Below are positions 4,932-18,460 of a stretch of DNA of 64,000 nucleotides, one piece after another. The stretch spans positions 124,001 to 188,000 of the forward strand of contig RXJR01000015.1 of assembly GCA_003963305.1 (NCBI GenBank). Direction: 5' to 3'. The translations under genes were made by a program, and so were the position numbers. The stretch comes from Candidatus Melainabacteria bacterium (lineage in GTDB: Bacteria; Cyanobacteriota; Vampirovibrionia; Obscuribacterales; Obscuribacteraceae). The notes beneath the pieces were generated by a model. The model ran no database searches, was not told where the DNA came from, and was given only the letters and a program-made list of their open reading frames with translations. The first letter of the stretch is position 1. Each line of letters starts with the position of its first letter.

Positions 4932-6314
4932 ATGACCGGCTCTGTCGAAAATCAGATGATGGGATCAACATCCTGCAAACAGGCTTCGGTCCTCGAACTG
5001 GCGCAGCGAGCAAAAACTGCCGCAAACACATTGGCTGGAATCACAGCCAGTCAACGCAATCTGGCTCTCAATTCTATTGCCGAGTCCATCGGCGCAAATG
5101 TAAAGGACATTCTGGAAGCCAACAAAGCAGATCTGAAAGCGGCAGAGATTCTTCTTGCCGAAGGCAAGATTTCTCAAACACTCGTTGATCGTTTGAAGCT
5201 CGACGAAAACAAGCTTTCTTCAGTGCTCAAGGGCATTCAGCAGCTCTCGAAAATGGCTGATCCCCTGGGAAAAATAGATCTCGATCGCGAACTTGATACA
5301 AATCTGGAACTGCAACGTGTGACGTGCCCGATCGGTCTGATTGCAGTTATCTTTGAAGCTCGCCCAGACGCGCTGCCGCAAATTGCCTCACTCTGCCTCA
5401 AGAGCGGCAACGCGATCATTTTAAAAGGTGGTGCCGAGGCGGAGCACTCCAACCGAGCTCTCTTCGCATGCCTGAAGAAAGCCGCTGTCACTGCCGGCTT
5501 GCCGGGTGACAGCCTGGTTCTTTTAGAAACGAGATCTGATGTGAATGAGTTGCTCAAAGCTGATCGTTTCGTCGACCTGGTCATCCCCAGAGGTTCCAAC
5601 GCGCTGGTTCGTTTTATTCAGGACAATACTCGCATTCCGGTTCTCGGGCACGCGGAAGGAGTATGCCATATCTACGTTGACGACTCGGCCGACACCGAAA
5701 AGGCGGTCTCGATAATACGCGATGCGAAAGTACAATACCCTTCAGCATGCAATGCGGTTGAGACAATTTTGATTCACCAGAACATAGCACCACAAGTGAT
5801 GCCGGTCCTGGCCAGGGCTCTGACTGAGCAGAAAGTCAGTATGCGCTGCGACCCGCTTTCACTGAAACTGGCAGGAGCTGAAACACTCACATCCCCGGCC
5901 AGAAAAGAAGACTGGGGCACCGAATACGGTGAGCTTATCCTCGCCGTCAAAGTTGTAAAAGACATAGACGAAGCTATCGAACACATCAATCGATACGGCT
6001 CGGGTCACACCGAAACGATGATCGGGTCAGATCAAAAAAGATTCGACAAGTTCTTCGCCCAGGTCAATTCTGCTGGAGTTTACTACAACGCCTCCACACG
6101 TTTCGCAGACGGCTATAGATACGGATTTGGAGCAGAGGTGGGAATAAGCACTGCTAAACAGCACCCACGCGGTCCGGTTGGCATAGAAGGTCTGGTTACT
6201 TACAAGTACAAACTGGTTGGCGATGGACACATTGTCGCTGACTACGTTGGCAGTAACGCTAAGCAATTTACACACACAGATTTGAACGAACAACAGAAAC
6301 AGGAAAAGAAGTAA
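4932..6314 (+). CDS. proA: Gamma-glutamyl phosphate reductase
   Basis: 460 residues, about 40 longer than the E. coli enzyme, with short extensions at both ends. It reduces gamma-glutamyl phosphate to glutamate semialdehyde with NADPH. The catalytic Cys is C273 in Y-P-S-A-C-N-A. The conserved F-E-A-R-P-D and I-L-K-G-G motifs lie upstream. It starts 11 bases after the proB stop with AGGTGG before the ATG, and its stop codon overlaps the proC start. ProA and ProB usually work together because the acyl phosphate is unstable. Confidence 0.96.
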   Translation: MTGSVENQMMGSTSCKQASVLELAQRAKTAANTLAGITASQRNLALNSIAESIGANVKDILEANKADLKAAEILLAEGKISQTLVDRLKLDENKLSSVLKGIQQLSKMADPLGKIDLDRELDTNLELQRVTCPIGLIAVIFEARPDALPQIASLCLKSGNAIILKGGAEAEHSNRALFACLKKAAVTAGLPGDSLVLLETRSDVNELLKADRFVDLVIPRGSNALVRFIQDNTRIPVLGHAEGVCHIYVDDSADTEKAVSIIRDAKVQYPSACNAVETILIHQNIAPQVMPVLARALTEQKVSMRCDPLSLKLAGAETLTSPARKEDWGTEYGELILAVKVVKDIDEAIEHINRYGSGHTETMIGSDQKRFDKFFAQVNSAGVYYNASTRFADGYRYGFGAEVGISTAKQHPRGPVGIEGLVTYKYKLVGDGHIVADYVGSNAKQFTHTDLNEQQKQEKK

Positions 6315-7144
6315 TGCTGAAGGGTAAGAAACTTGGTGTCGTCGGCGTCGGGAAACTGGGCGAAGCTCTGATTTCAGGACTGCTCAAACAAAGCGATTTA
6401 GACGTTTGTGATATCACAGGCAGTGTGCATCACGAAGCCTCGATCGAGCGGGTAAAAGATCGACTGGGCATCGAAACGACGCTGGACAATAGGGCGCTGG
6501 CTAAAGGCAAAGACATTATTCTGATTGCCGTTAAACCACAGAATATGGATAAGGTTTTGCGAGAAATAGGCGAGCACCTGACCTCTGACCAACTGCTGAT
6601 TTCGGTCGCCGCCTCGGTCACTACATCCTTCGTCGAAGAACGTTTGCCCAAGCCGATTCCGGTTGTTCGCGCCATGCCCAACACACCCAGTATCATGAAC
6701 GCAGGTATGACCGGGCTTTGCGTTGGACGTCATGCGAAACCGGAGCACAAGGAAATATCCGAAGCAATTTTCGACTGCGTCGGTAAAACCGTTTTCGTAG
6801 ACGAGAATCTTATGGATGGTGTGACAGCCCTGTCAGCAAGCGGACCGGCATACCTTTACGTTGTCATTGAATCGCTGGCTGAGGCAGGCGTTAAGATGGG
6901 TCTTTCCAGGGAAGTGTCGACATTGCTTGCAGCCCAAACCATGTACGGGGCATCACGAATGGTGCTGGAGTCGAAAGCACATCCAGCTCTCCTCAAAGAC
7001 ATGGTGACAACACCAGCAGGCTGCACAATCGACGGGCTGATGGAACTGGAAGAAGGAAAACTGAGAGTCACCTTGATCAAAGCCGTCGTCAAAGCATCCG
7101 AGCGCGCTCGAGAACTGGTCAACTATCAAAATTCGGCTAAATAG
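6314..7144 (+). CDS. proC: Pyrroline-5-carboxylate reductase
   Basis: 276 residues. It performs the last step of proline synthesis, NAD(P)H-dependent reduction of pyrroline-5-carboxylate. The N-terminal Rossmann motif is V-G-V-G-K-L-G-E-A. R-A-M-P-N-T-P near residue 120 and S-G-P-A-Y near 178 are the family signatures. The ATG overlaps the proA stop (TAATG), so translation is likely coupled. All three biosynthetic enzymes are therefore encoded together, which is less common than scattered proBA and proC. Confidence 0.96.
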   Translation: MLKGKKLGVVGVGKLGEALISGLLKQSDLDVCDITGSVHHEASIERVKDRLGIETTLDNRALAKGKDIILIAVKPQNMDKVLREIGEHLTSDQLLISVAASVTTSFVEERLPKPIPVVRAMPNTPSIMNAGMTGLCVGRHAKPEHKEISEAIFDCVGKTVFVDENLMDGVTALSASGPAYLYVVIESLAEAGVKMGLSREVSTLLAAQTMYGASRMVLESKAHPALLKDMVTTPAGCTIDGLMELEEGKLRVTLIKAVVKASERARELVNYQNSAK

Positions 7145-7151
7145 CTACGAG

Positions 7152-8498
7152 TTAAGAAGGGAAGAGCAAAATCGGCGTCGTCATCGTCTTCGCTGTCTCT
7201 TTAGCCTGACGAGCCGCCGCAATCAAAACTTCCGGATCGTCGCAAGTCTGCGGCATCGTCGCCATCCCTATAGCGGCAAGCACACTCTCATTGCGACTGC
7301 TTGACGACAACGGTTCACTCGTTAAGGCAGTATGCAAGGTCTGAGCCCAAGACGAGACTGCAGCACTATCCAGACCCGGTACTATTGCAGCGAATTCACC
7401 GCCGCTCAGATGAGTGACGATATCGAACTCGGTTGCCACTGTATTGATACGCTCGATAATAGTCGGCAGAGCGACAGCCGGTAAAGCGACGTTCTCATAA
7501 CCAATTCGCAAAGCGACCTCGAACACAACGACTGCAAACGGCGTCCTGGCGCGTTTATAGAGCGCCTGCTCTCTGAACAAGAAATAGACGAATGTCGCAA
7601 AAGAGTGCAAAGTGGTGTTCGGGTCGATCAAGCCCGAGCCGACCCTGTCGATCAGAGTCACATCCAGCTTGATTGGCGGAGGCAGTGGAACCCTTGGAGC
7701 GGTCGGCTCCGGAGCAACGACAGGAGCAGGTGCGCTAGCCTGTGGCTGCTGTGGATGCTGGTGGGCTGGTGCGGTCGGGGCTGCTTGAGAGGCGGCCGGG
7801 ACCTCATCGACAACCGGAACCTGATCATTCGGCAGGGGAGCTGCCGGCTTCGGTGAGCTGGCAACGGGCTGAGCCGTGCCTGGATGCAACGCCGGCATAT
7901 TGGTTTTGGATGCATTCGGATTGAAAACCGGAGGTTGAACCAGCCCATCGGCCCAGTTCTCACCAAAAGCTGGTGCTATCTGCGGTGGCGCCTGAAAGGC
8001 ATTGATTGCCTGTTGTTGAGATTGAGCAAAGAAAGTGTTGGCAGCCGGCGCAGCTACGCTCTCAGGTGAAGCGACGGCGCCCGGAGCAAGTGGATTGTCT
8101 ATGTCAGAGCCGCCGCCGATGTTGACCTGCAAAGACATGGGCTGAGACGGTATTACCGTCTCGGTTTCACCATCTTGCGGAACATATTGAGTATCGATCT
8201 TAATTTTGTTCTGCACCATCAACACATCTTCAGAGTTGCGATTCCACAACCTGGCTGCGTTTGGTCCATCGCCTCTCAACAAGGTCCAGGCTGGGGGATT
8301 TTTGTTGCCGACCGACAAAACGAGCTTCACAACAAACATTTGATGGTTGCTCGGATGTTCAAAAGGTAACTCAATCGTCTTGCCGATCCGTTTTTGCCCT
8401 TCAGCGATTGCGTAACGCAAGTCATCAGTTGTCGGCACCGAATTCATTTTCGGCAACCGAAAAACTTGTGAAGTGCTCAAGGAATCGTATAAAGGCAT
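7152..8498 (-). CDS. Unknown N-terminal domain, Pro-rich linker and degenerate GGDEF domain
   Basis: 448 residues. Residues about 14-105 form a domain shared with the protein at 13654-15120. Common features in order are R-L-P-x5-P, E-x-P-(F/W), Q-x-F-V and P-x-W-T-L. Residues about 130-270 are a Pro/Ala/Gln-rich linker. Residues about 280-445 align with a GGDEF domain: D-P-N-T in place of D-P-L-T, F-E-V where D-x-D is expected, and S-G-G-E-F at 365-369 instead of G-G-D/E-E-F. Metal-binding acidic residues are lost, so it is unlikely to make c-di-GMP and may act as a receptor or scaffold. It converges on proC with a 7-base gap. Confidence 0.75.
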   Translation of the reverse strand: MPLYDSLSTSQVFRLPKMNSVPTTDDLRYAIAEGQKRIGKTIELPFEHPSNHQMFVVKLVLSVGNKNPPAWTLLRGDGPNAARLWNRNSEDVLMVQNKIKIDTQYVPQDGETETVIPSQPMSLQVNIGGGSDIDNPLAPGAVASPESVAAPAANTFFAQSQQQAINAFQAPPQIAPAFGENWADGLVQPPVFNPNASKTNMPALHPGTAQPVASSPKPAAPLPNDQVPVVDEVPAASQAAPTAPAHQHPQQPQASAPAPVVAPEPTAPRVPLPPPIKLDVTLIDRVGSGLIDPNTTLHSFATFVYFLFREQALYKRARTPFAVVVFEVALRIGYENVALPAVALPTIIERINTVATEFDIVTHLSGGEFAAIVPGLDSAAVSSWAQTLHTALTSEPLSSSSRNESVLAAIGMATMPQTCDDPEVLIAAARQAKETAKTMTTPILLFPS

Positions 8499-8594
8499 GC
8501 GTTTTTAACCCTCACCGCAGAACCGCGCTCAGTCAATATACCCATATTAACGTACCACTCTTACGCGCCCTTACATCAATCCAGGACTAACATT

Positions 8595-10709
8595 TCAAGA
8601 TTTTCCCGACTCGATTTCCTTGATGCGTGTCTCCAGTTTGGCTGCTTCCTCGTTTTTGCCGAGTTTGCGCAATTCCTGAGCGTACATCTTCATAGTTCTG
8701 GCCACTTCAGGATTATCCGGTCCAAGCGCCACTTCTTTGATCTCAAGAGCCTGCTTGAAAAGAGGCGCGGACTCAGCTGTTTTTCCCTCAGCATCTTTAA
8801 GAACGGCGAGACAGGAAAGTATTTCCCCTGTGCGCAGATTTCGATATCCCAGAGACTGCTGCCTGATCTTCAAGGCTTGATTGAAAAGCTGCTCAGACTG
8901 ATCGAACTGATTCTGCAAGAAGGCAATACTACCCAGCCCAACCAGACTATCGGCAACCATCGGGTGGTCAGCACCAAGTGTCTTTACAAGAATCGCCTGT
9001 GCATCTTTGTACAAAGAGCGAGCACGATTCAAATCGCCTTTGATCTGGTAATCCATAGCGAGACTATTTTCAGCATCAGCAACTTCAGAACTACCGCTTC
9101 CTAACTGCTCCTTCCGAATCGACAGAGCCGTCTGCAACAACTTCAGGGCCTGGTCGATTCGCCCTGTCTTGTTGTACAGGGCAGCCATCGCTTTCAAACT
9201 GTCGGCATATTCAAGTGAATCGACGCCCGCACTCGCTTTCCGAATCGCCATCGCTTTGTTCAGCAAGGGCTCAGCCTGGGCAATTTTGTCTTCCGCGAAA
9301 TAGACCATAGCCAGATCGTTCATGCTGTCGGCGACAGGCAGTCCAGTTTTACCGAAAATTTCTTGACGAATAGCCAGTGCCTTCTTCAAAGACCGCTCTG
9401 CCTCAGGATAAAAATCTTCCTTAAAGTAGACATTGCCCAGATTATTCAAACTCGTGGCATAGCGAGGATCTTCGCTGTCGAATTCTTCTGCGGCTGTGCA
9501 GGCTTCTTTGAAAAATCTGCGAGCTGCCGGGTAGTGAGCACGATCGAACTCCTCCTCACCTTTGTCATTCAACTCTTTCCAGTCGGCGGTCTTTGCTGGT
9601 GCTGAACTGGTATGCTCGCGAGAATAGAAGAAGTACGCCATGGAAAGCCCTGCCACTACAAGCGATACCAGGGCAATCAGCGTTTGTAGTGGAAATCTCG
9701 TTTCCTTTGATTCTTTGTTTACAGAAATGGTGCGCAAAGGTCCAGACGATATCTCACCCACCTTCATAGCGGGAATGCAGGTTTGAGTAGCGTTCTTAGC
9801 CGGGCGCAGAGTGTTTCTGAACAGCTCGAGATCTGTCCAGAGCTCTAGAATCGATTGATAACGCTCGTCGGGGTCCGGGCGCAAGCATTTTAAGACGATA
9901 TTCTCGATTTGCTCGGGAATGGAAATAAGCTGGGGATCGACACTGGCAAAAGAACGGGGCTGCTCACTGATGTGCTTTTGAATAGTTTCTAAAATGTCAT
10001 TGCCCAGCAACGGCGGTTTGCCGGTCAGGGTCTCGTACATGACACAGCCGAGAGAATAAATATCAGAACGAGCATCCAGCCGTTTGCCCGTGCACTGCTC
10101 CGGACTCATATAGGCAGGGTCGCCGAGAAGCTGCCCGGGTTTAGTCAACTGCCCCGCCTCGGTTGAGGCAATACCCAGATGTTTAGCAATGCCGAAATCA
10201 ACCAATTTAACAACATCGTCTTGCTGCTCTTCGTCAACGAGCATAAAATTACTCGGCTTCAAATCGCGATGAATCAGCTCTCGTTTATGGGCGTAATTGA
10301 GGGCATCGCAGGCCTGGCAAAATATCCAGGTAGAACGAATCAGATCAAGTCGTTTCTCATTCTTGATCTCATCCCTGAGGTTGCTGCCTTCCAAGAAATC
10401 CATCACCAGATATGGTTGCCCTTTAGATGACACTCCAAAATCAAAGACGGTGACGATATTGTGGTGATTCAAGCTGCTTACAAGCTTTGCTTCCAGCTGA
10501 AATCGCTTCAGTGTCGGAACATCAGAAGCAGTCAAAACTTTCAGAGCCACCAGGCGGTCCATCAAAGTATGTTTGGCTTTATAAAGGCAGCTGGCACCGC
10601 CGCGTCCCAGCCTGTCCATGATTTGATAACGGTCTGCGAACAACGTCCCTATCAAAGGGTCAGAGCCTTTTGGCGCAGGTTTCTGGTTATGTTCCGACTC
10701 GGACGTCAC
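8595..10709 (-). CDS. Membrane Ser/Thr protein kinase with extracytoplasmic TPR domain
   Basis: The GTG at 10709 is a likely start; the frame is open to 10772, overlapping the upstream gene. The N-terminal Hanks-type kinase shows L-G-R-G-G-A-S, V-A-L-K-V, H-R-D-L-K-P-S-N, D-F-G-I-A-K and S-P-E-Q, so it should be active. One transmembrane helix follows (near residue 340-362), then about 300 residues of tetratricopeptide repeats of the kinesin-light-chain type (A-x-S-L-N-N-L-G, A-D-S-L-x-x-L-A). The kinase would face the cytoplasm and the TPRs the outside. It lies 26 bases after an LRR membrane protein gene, probably in one operon. Confidence 0.92.
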   Translation of the reverse strand: MTSESEHNQKPAPKGSDPLIGTLFADRYQIMDRLGRGGASCLYKAKHTLMDRLVALKVLTASDVPTLKRFQLEAKLVSSLNHHNIVTVFDFGVSSKGQPYLVMDFLEGSNLRDEIKNEKRLDLIRSTWIFCQACDALNYAHKRELIHRDLKPSNFMLVDEEQQDDVVKLVDFGIAKHLGIASTEAGQLTKPGQLLGDPAYMSPEQCTGKRLDARSDIYSLGCVMYETLTGKPPLLGNDILETIQKHISEQPRSFASVDPQLISIPEQIENIVLKCLRPDPDERYQSILELWTDLELFRNTLRPAKNATQTCIPAMKVGEISSGPLRTISVNKESKETRFPLQTLIALVSLVVAGLSMAYFFYSREHTSSAPAKTADWKELNDKGEEEFDRAHYPAARRFFKEACTAAEEFDSEDPRYATSLNNLGNVYFKEDFYPEAERSLKKALAIRQEIFGKTGLPVADSMNDLAMVYFAEDKIAQAEPLLNKAMAIRKASAGVDSLEYADSLKAMAALYNKTGRIDQALKLLQTALSIRKEQLGSGSSEVADAENSLAMDYQIKGDLNRARSLYKDAQAILVKTLGADHPMVADSLVGLGSIAFLQNQFDQSEQLFNQALKIRQQSLGYRNLRTGEILSCLAVLKDAEGKTAESAPLFKQALEIKEVALGPDNPEVARTMKMYAQELRKLGKNEEAAKLETRIKEIESGKS

Positions 10710-10735
10710 TATCACCACCGCCGCCCAGGCACTTG

Positions 10736-11623
10736 CTACGCCGGAATGCCACTCGCCATAATAATCTCGCAATTTTTTGGAAATGCATCTTTCAGTTCGC
10801 GAATTGTCGACTCAGCAACATCAGTGCCGGTCAGCGAGACCTTCGTCAATCCCTGCAATTTCTTCAAAGTTTCAAGCGACGCATCAGTGACTTTTGTATT
10901 ATCGAGCCAGATCTTTTTCAACGAATGGATCTGGGAAAGTTTCTCTACACCTTCGTCGCTGATTGACGTGTGCGACAGATCGATTTCGTAAAGCTTGCTG
11001 AAGTGCAACAAGTACTGCAGATCGTCGTCTTCTACTGCACTTTCGCTGCAGTCAATTGATTGCAGTGCGTGCGGATCCAGTTCTTTCAAGGAAGAAAGAT
11101 GCAGTGGTTTTTCTTTGCGCACTTCCAACTGCACATTGCTGCCCTTCGGAATCTTCACCACACCGCGGGCTTCACCAATACCTTCCCAGTAGTCAGGATC
11201 ATCCTGAGATTCGACAAGCACTTCGCCAAGCGAGGTATCGGGAAACTTGATTGATTTCGTTGCCACATTAGGTGATGACTTCGCATCCTGTTGAGCAGAA
11301 GACTTTTGCGCCGCATTCGTTACTGCCGATTGAGAGGCTTGCTGGTTCGACTCGTTTTTGGTAAGCGTGGCATCATTCGACCTGACTGCAGGTGCCTTCT
11401 GAGCAGAAATAACAAGCCCGAAAGTGACGACAGCAGCCATTACCCATTCAACCGACAAGCGCATGTAATCAAGCTTGACCTGCCCCGGTGGAGGTGCATA
11501 GAGAAAACCAAATGAAGTGGGAGTTTCAGTGATGAACTTCCAGGGCGGATAGAGCCCCATGGCAACGATGACCAGGATGCCCAGCCAGAGACAAAGTTTT
11601 TGATTTTCGTTCAAGTGATTCAT
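10736..11623 (-). CDS. Membrane protein with leucine-rich repeats
   Basis: 295 residues. There are two membrane segments, about residues 10-28 and 58-76. A Ser/Gln/Ala-rich linker follows. The last ~130 residues hold leucine-rich repeats of about 24 residues (L-x-x-I-D-L-S-H-T-x-I-S-D-x-G, L-x-K-I-W-L-D-N-T-x-V-T-D), ending in a short cap. LRRs of this kind bind proteins. It is the first gene of a likely operon with the TPR kinase, so it may present a ligand or partner to that kinase; this is inference. Confidence 0.82.
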   Translation of the reverse strand: MNHLNENQKLCLWLGILVIVAMGLYPPWKFITETPTSFGFLYAPPPGQVKLDYMRLSVEWVMAAVVTFGLVISAQKAPAVRSNDATLTKNESNQQASQSAVTNAAQKSSAQQDAKSSPNVATKSIKFPDTSLGEVLVESQDDPDYWEGIGEARGVVKIPKGSNVQLEVRKEKPLHLSSLKELDPHALQSIDCSESAVEDDDLQYLLHFSKLYEIDLSHTSISDEGVEKLSQIHSLKKIWLDNTKVTDASLETLKKLQGLTKVSLTGTDVAESTIRELKDAFPKNCEIIMASGIPA

Positions 11624-11744
11624 TTGTTAATTTCGTACTCTGAAGATTATTATCCAACACGACGCAGCTGTTTTCTAAACAGCGCCCTTGTATGCTTAGA
11701 GTACCTCGGTAGACCAATCATTGGAACCTTTGGAGGAACTCAAT

Positions 11745-12101
11745 ATGTGGGAACGATACAACTTGTCAGGGCAACAATCTATGTCTGCGGGGCGCGCCGC
11801 CGACGCTGAACAAGCATTCCGATTGGCTTTACAAGAAGCAGAGAAGCTGGGTTCGTGGGACCCGAAAGTTGCAGTCAGTTGCGTAAACCTGGCTAACTGC
11901 TTAAGGGCTCAAGGCCGCTTCGCAGAAGCAGAGGAACTTTACAAGAAGGCAATTACTGTCAAGGACAAAGCATTCGGGCCTTTGCATAAAGAATTGATCC
12001 CGGTGCTTGAGAACTACTCTAAAATGCTGCGTGCAGCCGGGCGAGCAGCTGAAGCCGACAAAATGGACAAACAAGCAAAAGCAATTTTTGTCAGACCATA
12101 A
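11745..12101 (+). CDS. Short TPR protein
   Basis: 118 residues from the ATG at 11745, which has GGAGG eight bases upstream; an earlier ATG at 11721 has no such site. Almost the whole protein is two to three kinesin-light-chain-type TPRs (V-A-V-S-C-V-N-L-A-N-C-L-R-A-Q-G), similar to those of the kinase encoded nearby. There is no signal peptide, so it is probably cytoplasmic. It is divergent from the LRR/kinase operon and 15 bases ahead of hmgA. Confidence 0.8.
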   Translation: MWERYNLSGQQSMSAGRAADAEQAFRLALQEAEKLGSWDPKVAVSCVNLANCLRAQGRFAEAEELYKKAITVKDKAFGPLHKELIPVLENYSKMLRAAGRAAEADKMDKQAKAIFVRP

Positions 12102-12116
12102 AACGGATGTAAGCAC

Positions 12117-13463
12117 GTGAAAAAAGTAGCTGAAAATATCAACAAAAATAATGGCTCTTCAAGACTCGACCAGTCTGCCTTGAAATACTTGAGCGGTTTT
12201 GCCAACCACTTCGAAAGTGAAGCAGAGCCAGGAACTTTGCCAGTCGGGCAGAACTCTCCGCAGCGCTGTGCTCGTGGACTTTATGCCGAACAATTGAGCG
12301 GAGCGGCATTTACAGCCAGTCGAGCCGAGAATCTGCGCAGCTGGTTATATCGCATCCGTCCTTCCGTGCTGCACTCTAAGTTCAAGAGTTATAAGCAAGG
12401 ATTATGGCGCGGCAAACCATTTTCAGACGCTTTCACCACACCAGAGCAGCTGCGCTGGGACCCAATGCCCACGCCTGACAAACCGACAGACTTCGTAGAC
12501 GGCGTGGCCACGATAGCAGGCAACGGTGACGCTGCCAGCTGGCGCGGCTGTGCAACCCATATCTACTCGATTAACCGCTCCATGACCGACCGTTTTTTTT
12601 ACGATGCTGATGGAGAGCTGCTTTTCGTTCCGGAGCGTGGCGCGCTGCGTATGCGCACCGAATTTGGTGACCTTGACGTAAAACCGGGAGAAATTGCCGT
12701 CATTCCACGCGGCGTCAAATTTCAAGTGCAGCTTCATGAAGATACCGCCCGTGGTTACATCTGCGAAAACTACGGACCACCTTTGCGCTTGCCTCCTCTC
12801 GGCGTAATCGGTGCCAACGGATTGGCCAACCCGAGAGACTTTCAATCACCGGTAGCGAAATATGAACAGATCGAAAAAGCGCACGAACTAATAGCCAAGT
12901 TCAACGGCAAATTGTGGGGCACCGAGCTGCGCCATTCGCCACTAGATGTGGTGGCATGGCACGGCAACTACGCTCCTTACAGATACGATTTGAATCACTT
13001 CCAGGCCGTTAACACGGTTACTTTCGACCATTCCGATCCGTCGATTTTTACAGTCTTGACTTCACCGTCTGAAGTGCCTGGGTTCGCCAACGTCGACTTT
13101 GTCATCTTCCCTCCACGCTGGATGGTTGCAGAACACACCTTCAGACCGCCCTACTACCATCGCAACATGATGAGCGAATACATGGGCTTGATTCTCGGCG
13201 TCTACGATGCCAAAGAAGAAGGTTTCGTACCGGGTGGAGGCAGCCTGCATAATTGCATGACCGCTCACGGTCCTGACACCGACACTTTCGAGAAAGCAAG
13301 TGCAGTTGAGCTGACCCCTAAATATCAAGGTGACACTCTCGCTTTCATGTTCGAGAGCTCCTTAATTTTTCACCCCACCGAATTTGCAGTCAAATCGGAA
13401 ATTTTGCAACCAGATTACCTGGATTGTTGGGCTGGCCTGAAAGCCAAGTTTTCTCCAGAGTAA
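12117..13463 (+). CDS. hmgA: Homogentisate 1,2-dioxygenase
   Basis: 448 residues with a GTG start, the normal family length. It opens the ring of homogentisate with O2 to give maleylacetoacetate in tyrosine and phenylalanine breakdown. The iron site is visible in R-P-P-Y-Y-H-R-N (His), M-M-S-E-Y-M-G (Glu) and H-N-C-M-T-A-H-G (His). The N-terminal Y-L-S-G-F-x-N-x-F-x-S-E-A is also typical. No maleylacetoacetate isomerase, fumarylacetoacetase or HPPD is in the window, so the pathway partners must lie elsewhere. It implies aerobic amino-acid catabolism. Confidence 0.96.
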
Positions 13464-13653
13464 TCGACGTTAGCTAATATCCTACCCGGGGAATAGACGG
13501 ATAGGCGGGGCAATCGTGAGCACTCAGCCACAGGCAACCTGCCGCCAAACCTGGTATTGTTCCGACTACTTGAACCAGATAGAAAGACAAACAGGCGAGA
13601 GTCTTAACTCGAGAATTTGACCGACTAGAATCCCTACTTTTCCGACAAACTGA

Positions 13654-15120
13654 ATGTATAAACCTAAAAAAGAAGAGAATAATAATCCCGTCGTCACCAA
13701 CCGCCAGAGACTGCCTGTAACGGCAGCGATGCCGGGACTGAAAGCCATTCAGGCACAATTCGATGCCGCCGTACACAGGCGCGGACTTATTGTCGAACAG
13801 CCATGGACGACCAGCGTTCCAAAACAACAGTTTGTTCTCATGGTGCAGTGGGATGCCAGCGCCGAATTTCCGCTCTGGACACTCTATGAAGAAAACGCCA
13901 ATGAATCGAAGATGCACTGGAGTCAGACATTTCCGCCCAGTGACGTGCAACTGATGTACGACGTTCTATCGATGTCGGTTGAGTCACAAGCTGGTCAGGG
14001 CAGCTTCAAGATACCCGACGAGCTGAAGCCAAAAGACGATTTTGATTTAGCCAGGCCCGAACCGATAGAGGCCAAACCCGCGGTGGCACCACCGCCGCCA
14101 CCGCCCCCTCCTCCACCGCCTCCGGCACCTGTAGCAGCTCCTGTTCAGCCGCCACCTCAGCCATATCCGGCTCCGGGAGGCTATCCGCAACCGCCACAGG
14201 GCTATCCTCAACCGCCTCAAGGATATCCTCAGGCAGCTCCAGGATATCCATCGCCGCAGGGTTACCCGCCAGGATATCCGCAGCCCGGTTATCCTCAACA
14301 AATGCCAGGCTATCCACCAGCCGGATATCCGCAATATCCACCCCAACAAGGCTACCCGGCGCAGGCTCCCGCACAGGCCCCGGCTCCGCAGCCGAGCCCA
14401 CGGCAAGACTCGATCTGGCAATCGGGTTATGCACCGACCTCACAACCGTCCCAGAGCGGCGCCTCGAAAAGTGCAGGCGACGACTTGAGACCGATCGACT
14501 ACAACATGATGGACAAACGAGCCAACGTCTTACTTGGCACGTTGCTTGTCGAAGCAGGTTTAGTCACTACACCTACATTAAACGCAGCTCTGAAAATTCA
14601 AGAGCTTGTACGCGATGAAAAGATGGACCAGGAACAAGCTTTTGATGCACTGAAACGCCTGCACTCAATGGGTGGGGCCATCGATAACTACCTGAGCCCA
14701 ACTGATTTCAAGTCAGGGAAAGTGAACAAACCGAGGCCGCCTCAAACCAGCGGTGGTGGCAGTGCGCCATCATCTGCAGGTCAGCCGCCACGATCAGGAG
14801 CAGTCGACCCGGAAAAACAGCGAGAGATGATGGCATCTTTCGACCTCTTACAAAAAGCCGGATTACTCAACGAAGCTGACCTGAAATCGGCGCAAGCAGT
14901 GCGTTCGAAACATGGCGGCGATATGGTGCAGATTCTCAAATCAGCCGGAAAATTGGAAATGAAGACATACGAAGCGGCTGTGACTTGCATTCGTCTGATA
15001 CACGTCGGCAAAATGAAAGTCGAACAATGCATTATCGCTTTGAACTACTGCAGCCGCAGCAGAGTGGGATTCGATGAAGCAATGGAAGAACTAAACTGGC
15101 CAAATCCGAAAAAGTCCTGA
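13654..15120 (+). CDS. Unknown N-terminal domain, GYPQ-rich linker and MshEN-like modules
   Basis: 488 residues. Residues about 19-110 are homologous to the N-terminal domain of the protein at 7152-8498 (R-L-P-x5-P, E-x-P-W, Q-x-F-V, P-x-W-T-L in the same order and spacing). Residues about 130-260 are a low-complexity linker with a poly-Pro run and repeated G-Y-P-Q. Residues 294-345 ([11 protein letters not shown]) and 396-485 resemble the repeat modules of the protein at 23152-24441 and the MshEN/GspE N-terminal fold. The second module is complete. No enzyme motif is present. It is probably a cytoplasmic signalling adaptor or nucleotide receptor. The EF-hand gene follows after 36 bases. Confidence 0.72.
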
Positions 15121-16179: not shown

Positions 16180-16390
16180 CTAATTCCTCAACTGTAAAAC
16201 CCAGACTATTTACTGCACACTCTCACTCTAGCCAGTAATTTTGGCAATTTGCTGGCAGCGCCTCGGCCTGGTCAAATCAGATCGATTATCTGACGGAGCA
16301 AGTGCAAATATCGGTCAGCCCGTGCCTGAACCATAACTAGGCTTGTTCTTGGGTATACTGTTTGGAAAGGACGAGGCACACAGGCTTCTG

Positions 16391-18460
16391 ATGGGCAAAA
16401 ACATCCTACTTCTAGACGACGACAAGCAGTTTTGCAAACTGATGGCCTCGGTGCTAGAGGGGCGCGGGCACAAAGTCTTGCAAGCCGACAGCGGTGAAAA
16501 GGCCTGGGAAACTCTAAACAAAGAGAATCTCGACCTGGTTATCGTTTGCGGACCACTGCCAGACAAATCGGGCGTAGATTGGATAAGCGAGGTGCGTGCC
16601 AAGGGCAACGACATACGCTGTGTTTTTGTCGGGCAATCGCAGAAAGATGTGCAGATAAATAAATCCAAGCTTGAAAACGAGCTTGGCATCTCGCTTATCG
16701 TTCATAAGCCTGTGATTCCATTTGTCTTTGGCGCCCAGATAGAAGGTCAGTTCGCCGAGAGTGCCTCTGCTCAAGCGGGCAAACTGAAAGATTTCGAAAC
16801 GATGTTTCTGGCGCTCGTAACAAAATATGCTCACCTGTTGCCGACAAAATTGAATGACCTGTCTGCAGCAATTCAAAAAGCGAAAGCAGATCCGAATAAT
16901 AAAGATCTGGTTGGCGAAGTGCGCGCACAGGCTCACAAAATCAAAGGCACGGGAGGCTCGCTGGGTTTCAGAATGGTCGGGGAAGCAATGGCTTTCATCG
17001 AACAAGCAGCCGTGGCGATGCCAAGCAAATCTCACGAAGAACAACAGATTTCCTGGGCCGAAATCGACAGAAAGCTGATCGAAGCTCAGGCGGCAGGCGA
17101 AATGGAGGCACGCGAAGTTGCCTCGGTGGTAGCCGGTAAAGACGAAGGTTCAAGTGCCGAGCACGAACCAGCTATGGCGAGAATATTAGTCGTCGACAGC
17201 GATCAGGAATTTCTCAATCTGATCGAAGATCTCGGTCGCGAGAGGCTTGTGGAAATCGTTAAAGCACTGAACGTCACCGAAGCGCTAAACAAGGCGTGCC
17301 TGCTCCCTCTCGACGCGGCACTGGTAAATGTCGTGCAAGACTCAGCCGAAGAATCGTTCAAACTGGCGAGACAACTGCGAGAGCTGCCTGGTTACGAGAA
17401 CCTTCCTCTGGCTTTCATTTCAGGCGATGCAATCGGCAAAGACCGCGTTGAAGCCGCTCATGCCGGTGCTTCTCTATATCTCGACAAACCACTGCAATCA
17501 GATTCGCTCGAGACCGCTGTTCAGCATCTCGTCGCCATCAGACAGGGCGGTCGGCCGCGCATCTTAATCACTGATGACGACGAATTTTTCGCCAACACAG
17601 TCGCCCTCACCTTGCGCAACGAAGGCATGATTGTGCGCACCTTGCTCGACCCGACAAAAATTCTCGACGTCATGCAAGATTTTCCACCCGACATGCTGCT
17701 TCTCGACGTAATGATGCCAGGCATCACAGGCTTCGAAGTCTGCCGTATGCTCAGACAGGTACCGCGCTGGCAAGACCTGCCAATCATCTTCCTGACTGGA
17801 CAAACCGGTGTTGATGCTCGCGTCGAAGCCTTCAGATCTGGCGGAGACGACTATCTGCCAAAACCGGTAGTGAACGAGGAACTGCTTACCCGAGTCAAAG
17901 TAAGACTGGACCGCTCCAAACTTTTGAAAGAACGTTCAGACAAAGACACAATCACCGGTCTCTTGCTGAGACGGGCATTTTCAGAGCACCTCACCGGAAT
18001 GATCGCGGAAGCCCAGCGAACAAATTCTGGTTTCTCAGTTTGCTTGCTTGACGTCGATCACTTCAAAAAAGTGAACGATACGTACGGTCATCTTGCCGGC
18101 GACAAAGTACTGGCCGGGCTCGGACAGCTGCTTTCCCGCAGATTCCGAGTCGACGATCTACGCGGGCGCTGGGGCGGCGAAGAATTCATTCTCGCCTTTA
18201 GAAGAGAAGCAAAAGAGACGATGCATGCAGCCGTGCTGCGCGTTTTAGACGAATTCAGCGACATGACTTTCGTCAGTGATGAAGGTAAAGAATTTCACGT
18301 CAGCTTCAGCGGTGGTCTGGCTACTTTCCCGGAAGACGGCGAATCAGTCTACGACCTGCTTCAGACAGCAGACAGAAGACTCTATGAAGCGAAACGAGCC
18401 GGCAGACGTCGAATCGTTTTAAACGATCCGGATCCAGCGGCTGTTCCGACTACGACTTGA
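16391..18460 (+). CDS. Hybrid response regulator: REC-Hpt-REC-REC-GGDEF
   Basis: 689 residues from the ATG at 16391 (the frame is open to 16343). Receiver 1 keeps the acidic D-D-D pocket but has Cys where the phosphoacceptor Asp belongs (V-I-V-C-G-P). An Hpt domain has its His at H182 in H-K-I-K-G-T. Receiver 2 is degenerate (Asn at the acceptor position, V-N-V). Receiver 3 is intact with D439 in L-L-L-D-V-M. The GGDEF domain has G-G-E-E-F at 595-599 and an R-x-x-D inhibitory site at 586-589. The protein should make c-di-GMP, controlled by phosphorylation of receiver 3 and possibly by Hpt relay. No cognate kinase is adjacent. Confidence 0.93.
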   Translation: MGKNILLLDDDKQFCKLMASVLEGRGHKVLQADSGEKAWETLNKENLDLVIVCGPLPDKSGVDWISEVRAKGNDIRCVFVGQSQKDVQINKSKLENELGISLIVHKPVIPFVFGAQIEGQFAESASAQAGKLKDFETMFLALVTKYAHLLPTKLNDLSAAIQKAKADPNNKDLVGEVRAQAHKIKGTGGSLGFRMVGEAMAFIEQAAVAMPSKSHEEQQISWAEIDRKLIEAQAAGEMEAREVASVVAGKDEGSSAEHEPAMARILVVDSDQEFLNLIEDLGRERLVEIVKALNVTEALNKACLLPLDAALVNVVQDSAEESFKLARQLRELPGYENLPLAFISGDAIGKDRVEAAHAGASLYLDKPLQSDSLETAVQHLVAIRQGGRPRILITDDDEFFANTVALTLRNEGMIVRTLLDPTKILDVMQDFPPDMLLLDVMMPGITGFEVCRMLRQVPRWQDLPIIFLTGQTGVDARVEAFRSGGDDYLPKPVVNEELLTRVKVRLDRSKLLKERSDKDTITGLLLRRAFSEHLTGMIAEAQRTNSGFSVCLLDVDHFKKVNDTYGHLAGDKVLAGLGQLLSRRFRVDDLRGRWGGEEFILAFRREAKETMHAAVLRVLDEFSDMTFVSDEGKEFHVSFSGGLATFPEDGESVYDLLQTADRRLYEAKRAGRRRIVLNDPDPAAVPTTT

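Follow-up and report, generated by a model that had tools for sequence, protein, structure and literature searches.

A lineage-specific N-terminal domain heading GGDEF-like, MshEN-like and kinase proteins in the Obscuribacterales, and its possible role in docking

DUF4388 (PF14332), which we take to be the PATAN domain, is found in regulators of cyanobacteria, and degenerate GGDEF domains of the effector or pseudo-enzyme type form another described group of signalling modules. The MshEN domain (PF05157) serves as the receptor for bis-(3'-5')-cyclic dimeric GMP (c-di-GMP) in pilus and secretion ATPases; its 24-residue motif is published, and c-di-GMP binding is described with two such motifs in PMC5013675. 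Here, we analyzed a stretch of 64,000 nucleotides (hereafter, the window) from Candidatus Melainabacteria bacterium, order Obscuribacterales (assembly GCA_003963305.1, contig RXJR01000015.1, positions 124,001 to 188,000), where likenesses to all three meet behind one N-terminal domain, here called ND. The window encodes two ND proteins: P0001, which ends in a GGDEF-like domain, and P0002, which ends in a module resembling MshEN (hereafter, the Msh module). An earlier note on this DNA had proposed that the N-terminal regions of the two proteins are one domain, followed in each case by a proline-rich linker; both open reading frames and both linkers were found where it had placed them (Table 1).

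The four motifs given for the shared region (RLP-x5-P, E-x-P-F/W, Q-x-F-V and P-x-W-T-L) are present in both proteins and in the same order, reading RLPKMNSVP, ELPF, QMFV and PAWTL in P0001 and RLPVTAAMP, EQPW, QQFV and PLWTL in P0002. Their spacing is near-identical, as proposed, but a local alignment takes two gaps (of 1 and 2 residues) and not a single one. The pairwise alignment score was 49, with shuffled sequences averaging 26.5 (standard deviation 4.8) and 3 out of 2,000 scoring as high; as this is moderate and suggestive only, homology was decided with family profiles. An ND profile built exclusively from MshEN-type proteins (37 sequences, some of them near-copies) matched P0001 at E 1.1e-11, while the one built exclusively from GGDEF-type proteins (67 sequences) matched P0002 at E 1.3e-15 (Z = 6000); the reversed-sequence controls gave E 830 and 140. 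Since each cross-architecture profile recovers the other type, chance similarity is ruled out and the two regions (residues ~14-103 of P0001 and ~19-109 of P0002) are, on the sequence evidence, homologous. The divergence within the family is large: in a 14-row alignment the ND paralogues are only 19-25% identical to P0001, and among 36 diverse members (alignment A6, 36 of the 41 sequences remaining after clustering) Trp58 is the sole invariant residue, with Pro10 and Asp78 almost invariant.

The domain had been called undescribed, and this held in every resource searched. No Pfam or NCBIfam family lies over the ND region, and at a Pfam threshold of E 10 two of 14 ND members had one weak match each (E 0.044 and 0.087), to different families, which we take as chance. 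A sequence search of the PDB stayed at chance level with profile A1 (best E 0.28) and gave no matches with profile A4; plasmid records held no match to one ND at E 1. Likewise, no description of ND was found in the accessible portions of the open-licence literature on Obscuribacter or Vampirovibrionia with c-di-GMP, on PATAN/DUF4388, on MshEN with kinases, on Obscuribacterales domains or kinases, and on Melainabacteria pili with c-di-GMP.

The scale of the family is greater than the two proteins and two architectures first noticed, which are real: a 14-sequence profile identified 20 ND copies with four architectures in the genome of the window. As these members are spread over 13 contigs, the wording of a local signalling network finds no support. 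A search of the same genome with a single sequence had returned 14 matches, including a false positive (C28:41889), whose frame reads as an unrelated protein and which the profile did not recover. The existence of further homologues was borne out by the profile search of the order, where ND was matched at E 0.01 in 50 of 53 genomes (that of the window included), at 1-22 copies each and 546 in total. The three remaining genomes (G243, G244 and G245) belong to one genus of the same family, g119, in which no ND was found, pilus-type ATPases are present and DUF4388 matches number 2-3 per genome, compared with 19-20 in each of genomes G000, G209 and G226; the absence of ND from this genus is probably a loss. 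In a draw of 289 genomes from the class, all 50 genomes with matches belong to the order and none of the 236 outside it has an ND; draws from the phylum, which overlap one another and the class draw, gave none in 193 other genomes and, when a profile widened to 36 sequences was applied at E 0.001, none in 385 others. Thus, the range of Vampirovibrionia/Cyanobacteria proposed earlier was too wide, as within the phylum ND was found in one order only. The scan that reached beyond the phylum was made not with a profile but with two peptide patterns taken from the MshEN subfamily; in named genome contigs it found 21 loci, of which 12 are titled Melainabacteria, Obscuribacterales or Obscuribacter, three Cyanobacteria or Cyanobacteriota, four simply "bacterium", one Proteobacteria and one Actinobacteria. 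The last two (L087 and L091) lie on contigs of metagenome-assembled genomes, have ND genes resembling those of the Obscuribacterales, and are suspected to be wrongly titled bins. In addition, one weak match (G226:C5:3918-4091, E 0.00128) contains two stop codons and is probably a decayed copy. Given a copy number that reaches 22 per genome and its restriction to the order in the class and phylum draws, ND would represent a large unread part of regulation in these bacteria, and a model of it would bring annotation to hundreds of proteins together.

The domain architecture was determined for 57 proteins from four genomes (20 from that of the window, 16 from G209, 15 from G226 and six from G195) that were long enough to show an output; two more frames are cut off behind ND. 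In all 57, ND is N-terminal and single, and only four architectures occur: ND with DUF4388 and a GGDEF-like domain (37 proteins), with a GGDEF-like domain (8), with an Msh module (8), and with a Ser/Thr kinase and an Msh module (4). When only the top locus per genome was taken from 29 genomes (G209 and G195 also being among the four), there were 22 proteins with DUF4388 and a GGDEF-like domain, five with an Msh module and two cut off. Given that the architecture profiles were made from members of the window's genome, they lean to these four architectures. Among the 18 members of that genome besides the window pair, Pfam identified DUF4388 in 11 (one of which carries tetratricopeptide repeats [TPRs] too) and protein kinase domains in two. 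The likeness to the PATAN regulators therefore lies in a DUF4388 behind ND in 11 of the 20 ND proteins; the genome has 20 DUF4388 matches altogether, with 11 joined to ND, and neither P0001 nor P0002 has one. ND clearly illustrates how a single N-terminal module can precede both pseudo-enzymes and kinases. In this genome, the linkers behind it are 34-209 residues long. Nine of the 20, those of P0001 and P0002 included, have 95-209 residues, and eight of these nine contain 17-39% proline.

The GGDEF domain of P0001, previously described as dead, is a real domain (PF00990, 32 bits, above the cut-off of 23.8) and a degenerate one, with SGGEF in place of GG(D/E)EF. In an alignment of the 15 ND-linked GGDEF-like domains of the genome the GG(D/E)EF motif is missing from every one, while a response regulator of the window (16343-18460), aligned with them, retains it; because the motif is missing, c-di-GMP synthesis is not the output of these domains. 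They resemble the degenerate GGDEF type in that Pfam recognises P0001 and six paralogues above the cut-off and three more at E 0.01, that is, ten of the 15; the other five (L018, L019, L075, L076 and L077) differ in having no Pfam GGDEF match, and owe their name to the alignment alone. A relationship between ND and c-di-GMP synthesis at the genome level was also considered and ruled out, since GGDEF proteins with an intact motif occur in genomes with and without ND. In a two-strand check of ten loci per genome (30 of the 68 listed matches), GG(D/E)EF was found in a long frame at seven loci in G000, five in G195 and six in G244, which has no ND.

The Msh module resembles MshEN in its 24-residue motif, which in most members matches 8-10 of 11 published positions and is weaker in the others. 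For P0002, MshEN-like units had been proposed; one clear half-motif (10/11) is indeed present, but it is single, and the protein stays below the cut-offs, with 28.4 bits for NCBIfam NF053729 (cut-off 38) and no match to Pfam MshEN. The differences from the described receptor concern spacing and number: the two receptor motifs are 29 residues apart, with a 5-residue spacer, whereas Msh modules with two motifs of good quality have them 70-75 apart and P0002 has one. Moreover, the first Arg of the motif is mostly lost in Msh modules, being kept in four named loci (L080, L082, L084 and L086). Repeated motifs with the wide spacing were observed in L011:2660-4276 (C15:116655), L078, L080, L082, L084 and L091, and could mark a c-di-GMP site that has been either stretched or lost. 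Because motif spacing and count differ, and the only Pfam MshEN matches of the genome (E 0.001) lie at two other places, we regard the likeness, as far as sequences go, as resemblance and not membership. The single and stretched motifs pose a separate question on c-di-GMP.

A tree of the NDs was computed from the 57 proteins of the four genomes (92 columns), without the two cut-off frames or the 29 single loci taken from elsewhere; it has 15 open forks and a warning applies to the join of the long rows OWN_L076 and L116. The ND-Msh proteins group together (support 92/41). For the kinase and Msh architecture at least two changes are forced by well-supported branches, and for the GGDEF-only one at least three, though some of these may only reflect loss of DUF4388. 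Orthologous NDs are 36-60% identical (mean 0.48 over 18 hand-picked pairs), and the outputs of orthologous proteins have higher means, namely 0.54 for DUF4388 (9 pairs), 0.54 for the GGDEF-like domain (12 pairs) and, in 6 pairs, 0.56-0.62 for the parts of the Msh module. In P0001 the relation is reversed, with ND kept better than the GGDEF-like domain (0.58 versus 0.34, and 0.41 versus 0.24).

AlphaFold2 predicted the ND of P0001 with a predicted local distance difference test (pLDDT) score of 93.6 and a predicted template modelling (pTM) score of 0.84 from 19 of 25 unique alignment rows, and that of P0002 with values of 91.3 and 0.82 from 23 of 25; the rows used came from the window and the named genome contigs only. 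Both models contain, in the same order, a short strand, a helix, four strands and a helix, so ND is predicted to be an alpha-beta4-alpha domain of ~90 residues. The agreement of the folds, which had been proposed as a check on the shared domain, consists of identical topology and a common top PDB chain over model residues 12-96/97, a comparison made via the PDB chain and not by direct superposition. The two predictions are not independent, since alignments A4 and A5 have most rows, from MshEN-type NDs, in common.

Tentatively, we favour the reading that ND is a recruitment, docking or oligomerisation module on a tether. In such an arrangement, ND would stand at the extreme N-terminus as a paralogue-specific module, joined by the linker to a GGDEF-like domain without its catalytic motif, with or without DUF4388, or alternatively to a module with an MshEN half-motif, with or without a Ser/Thr kinase. 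Each copy would bind either a partner specific to it or a second ND, and binding would place the output at a chosen complex, where it would answer c-di-GMP, another ligand or phosphorylation. Several observations are consistent with this. The long linkers are proline-rich in eight of nine cases, which makes rigid coupling between ND and output unlikely there. The different outputs, together with the at least two separate pairings with kinase and Msh that the tree forces, suggest that the role of ND is independent of any one output. Also, the few invariant residues and the lower identity of ND orthologues compared with their outputs are as expected for a diversifying recognition module.

Other points weigh against docking. 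A diversifying surface suits a ligand sensor equally well. The near-invariant residues would be structural, but this is a judgement from sequence and predicted secondary structure. The linker argument reaches only half of the family, as 11 of the 20 linkers in the genome have 34-65 residues, ten of them with 5-13% proline. The architecture appears mostly inherited along the ND tree, because 8 changes are needed where the minimum is 3 and shuffled labels average 19; the modular swap envisaged in the earlier note thus has some support in the forced changes but would be occasional. Finally, there is no steady neighbour that could be the partner, and no kinase in the 11 kb read near the P0001 orthologue of G226.

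A somewhat unlikely alternative, and the nearest competitor of docking, is that ND is a ligand-sensing input domain, each paralogue binding a small molecule and relaying it to the output. PAS and GAF are input domains of this kind in other lineages, and the N-terminal place, the lineage expansion to 20-22 copies and the several outputs are typical of sensor domains. The low identity among paralogues would also fit, as would the eleven linkers of 65 residues or fewer. On the other side, neither a pocket nor a conserved polar cluster has been shown, near-invariant residues are few, and the longest linkers would fit tethering better than relay. Returning to docking, we consider unlikely its more far-reaching form, in which ND would be a captured or invented fold, in up to 22 copies per genome, serving as one shared plug by which pseudo-diguanylate-cyclases, PATAN regulators and Ser/Thr kinases would each be directed to different partners. 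This would amount to a private docking code, joined to MshEN-type c-di-GMP sites, stretched or split, which might be complete only on pairing.

It seems improbable that ND is distantly related to the small protein YkuJ (DUF1797, PF08796) and tethers regulators to the transcription machinery. The idea arises from the fold: when the Foldseek list was run through VIA-align, Bacillus subtilis YkuJ (2ffg_A), which has a similar arrangement of helix, four strands and helix, was the top entry for both ND models (Z 8.1, root-mean-square deviation [rmsd] 3.1, 75/80 residues; and Z 7.7, rmsd 2.8, 76/80). The best entries other than YkuJ reached Z 4.9 and 5.8, and the second for P0001 was a YkuJ-NusA model entry (Z 6.9). 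The profile-profile score of ND with YkuJ (represented by three sequences) is 14.9 over 11 columns, above the maximum of 14.2 reached in 100 column shuffles. YkuJ co-elutes after crosslinking with the RNA polymerase binders NusA and GreA (PMC10090944). Against kinship, Foldseek gave many weak PDB matches for both models and none under E 0.001, a Z near 8 can reflect a common arrangement, and hhalign, with a YkuJ profile of three sequences, assigned a probability of 1.8% over the 11 columns and 0.2% when forced end to end. DUF1797 had no match in 14 ND members at E 10, and its one match in the window's genome is at a non-ND place (13.2 bits, cut-off 27). The solved YkuJ chain is furthermore a stand-alone protein (87 residues with tag, 79 matched), while ND is always fused to an output in complete proteins. 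YkuJ is therefore treated as the nearest known arrangement and not as a demonstrated relative. On a Bacillus velezensis plasmid (L101, 1-1240), a DUF1797 (YkuJ) gene lies behind a gene whose annotation reads EAL-associated domain protein; this counts in favour of the YkuJ reading and possibly links the fold to c-di-GMP outside the order.

Highly improbable, in our view, is that ND mainly homo- or heterodimerises among the 20 paralogues in a mixed network with no outside partner. Every one of the 57 proteins has one ND, and P0002 has a single MshEN half-motif where two are described for c-di-GMP binding (PMC5013675), so pairing could complete a site; the ND predictions, however, are of monomers only. 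Least probable of all is docking of the outputs on the type IV pilus motor, for although PATAN and MshEN are linked to pilus control in cyanobacteria and elsewhere, and an action on the pilus has been proposed for PATAN response regulators, in the case of PixE hypothetically via PilB1 binding (PMC7690835), ND does not track pilus machinery across the seven genomes searched, the three ND-less g119 genomes each having five T2SSE ATPase and two MshEN matches while G195, with 8 ND matches, has no MshEN match and two lower-scoring T2SSE matches.

Table 1. Parts of the two ND proteins in the window, with positions counted from its first nucleotide
Feature	Position	Strand	Evidence
P0001, 448 aa: ND, proline-rich linker and degenerate GGDEF-like domain	7152..8498	-	
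ND of P0001, residues ~13-103	8190..8462	-	profile E 5.1e-27 (profile A1 includes P0001)
Linker of P0001, low-complexity, 184 residues, 19% proline	7641..8189	-	
GGDEF-like domain of P0001, SGGEF replacing GG(D/E)EF	7158..7640	-	PF00990 32 bits, alignment
P0002, 488 aa: ND, proline-rich linker and MshEN-half-motif module	13654..15120	+	
ND of P0002, residues ~19-109	13708..13980	+	profile E 1.6e-26 (profile A1 includes P0002)
Linker of P0002, low-complexity P/Y/Q/G, 179 residues, 31% proline	13981..14517	+	
MshEN-type 24-residue half-motif of P0002, residues 293-316, 10/11 positions, first Arg replaced by Leu	14530..14601	+	
C-terminal unit of P0002, common to ND-Msh and ND-kinase-Msh proteins	14890..15108	+	profile of own-genome members, including P0002

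The closeness of P0001 and P0002 in the window would be partly due to a conserved cluster in the order ND-Msh, proC, hgmA, ND-Msh. At four loci of other genera (L091, L094, L096 and L098) a relative of P0002 adjoins hgmA, and at the first three of these a second ND-Msh gene lies beyond proC. The window retains proC, hgmA and P0002, with the genes of P0001, a kinase with TPRs, a weak leucine-rich-repeat protein and a small TPR protein in between; the P0001 gene seems to have joined the cluster later. Amino-acid metabolism genes (proC and hgmA) are thus steady neighbours of ND-Msh regulators (window 6314-15120). In two genomes of the same genus, the order of the window is kept from proA through the response regulator. 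The Ser/Thr kinase with TPRs and the weak leucine-rich-repeat protein (8595-11623, minus strand) are encoded on the strand of P0001 and upstream of it, with 96 bases between P0001 and the kinase gene. A kinase gene is found near P0001 or its orthologues in the window, G229, G230 and G209 (the last with a different gene order), and the kinase is a lead for a partner of P0001. The response regulator at 16343-18460 (plus strand) combines three receiver domains, a histidine phosphotransfer (Hpt) domain and an intact GGDEF domain in one protein, and is 90-94% identical in the two same-genus genomes, compared with 59-88% for its neighbours.

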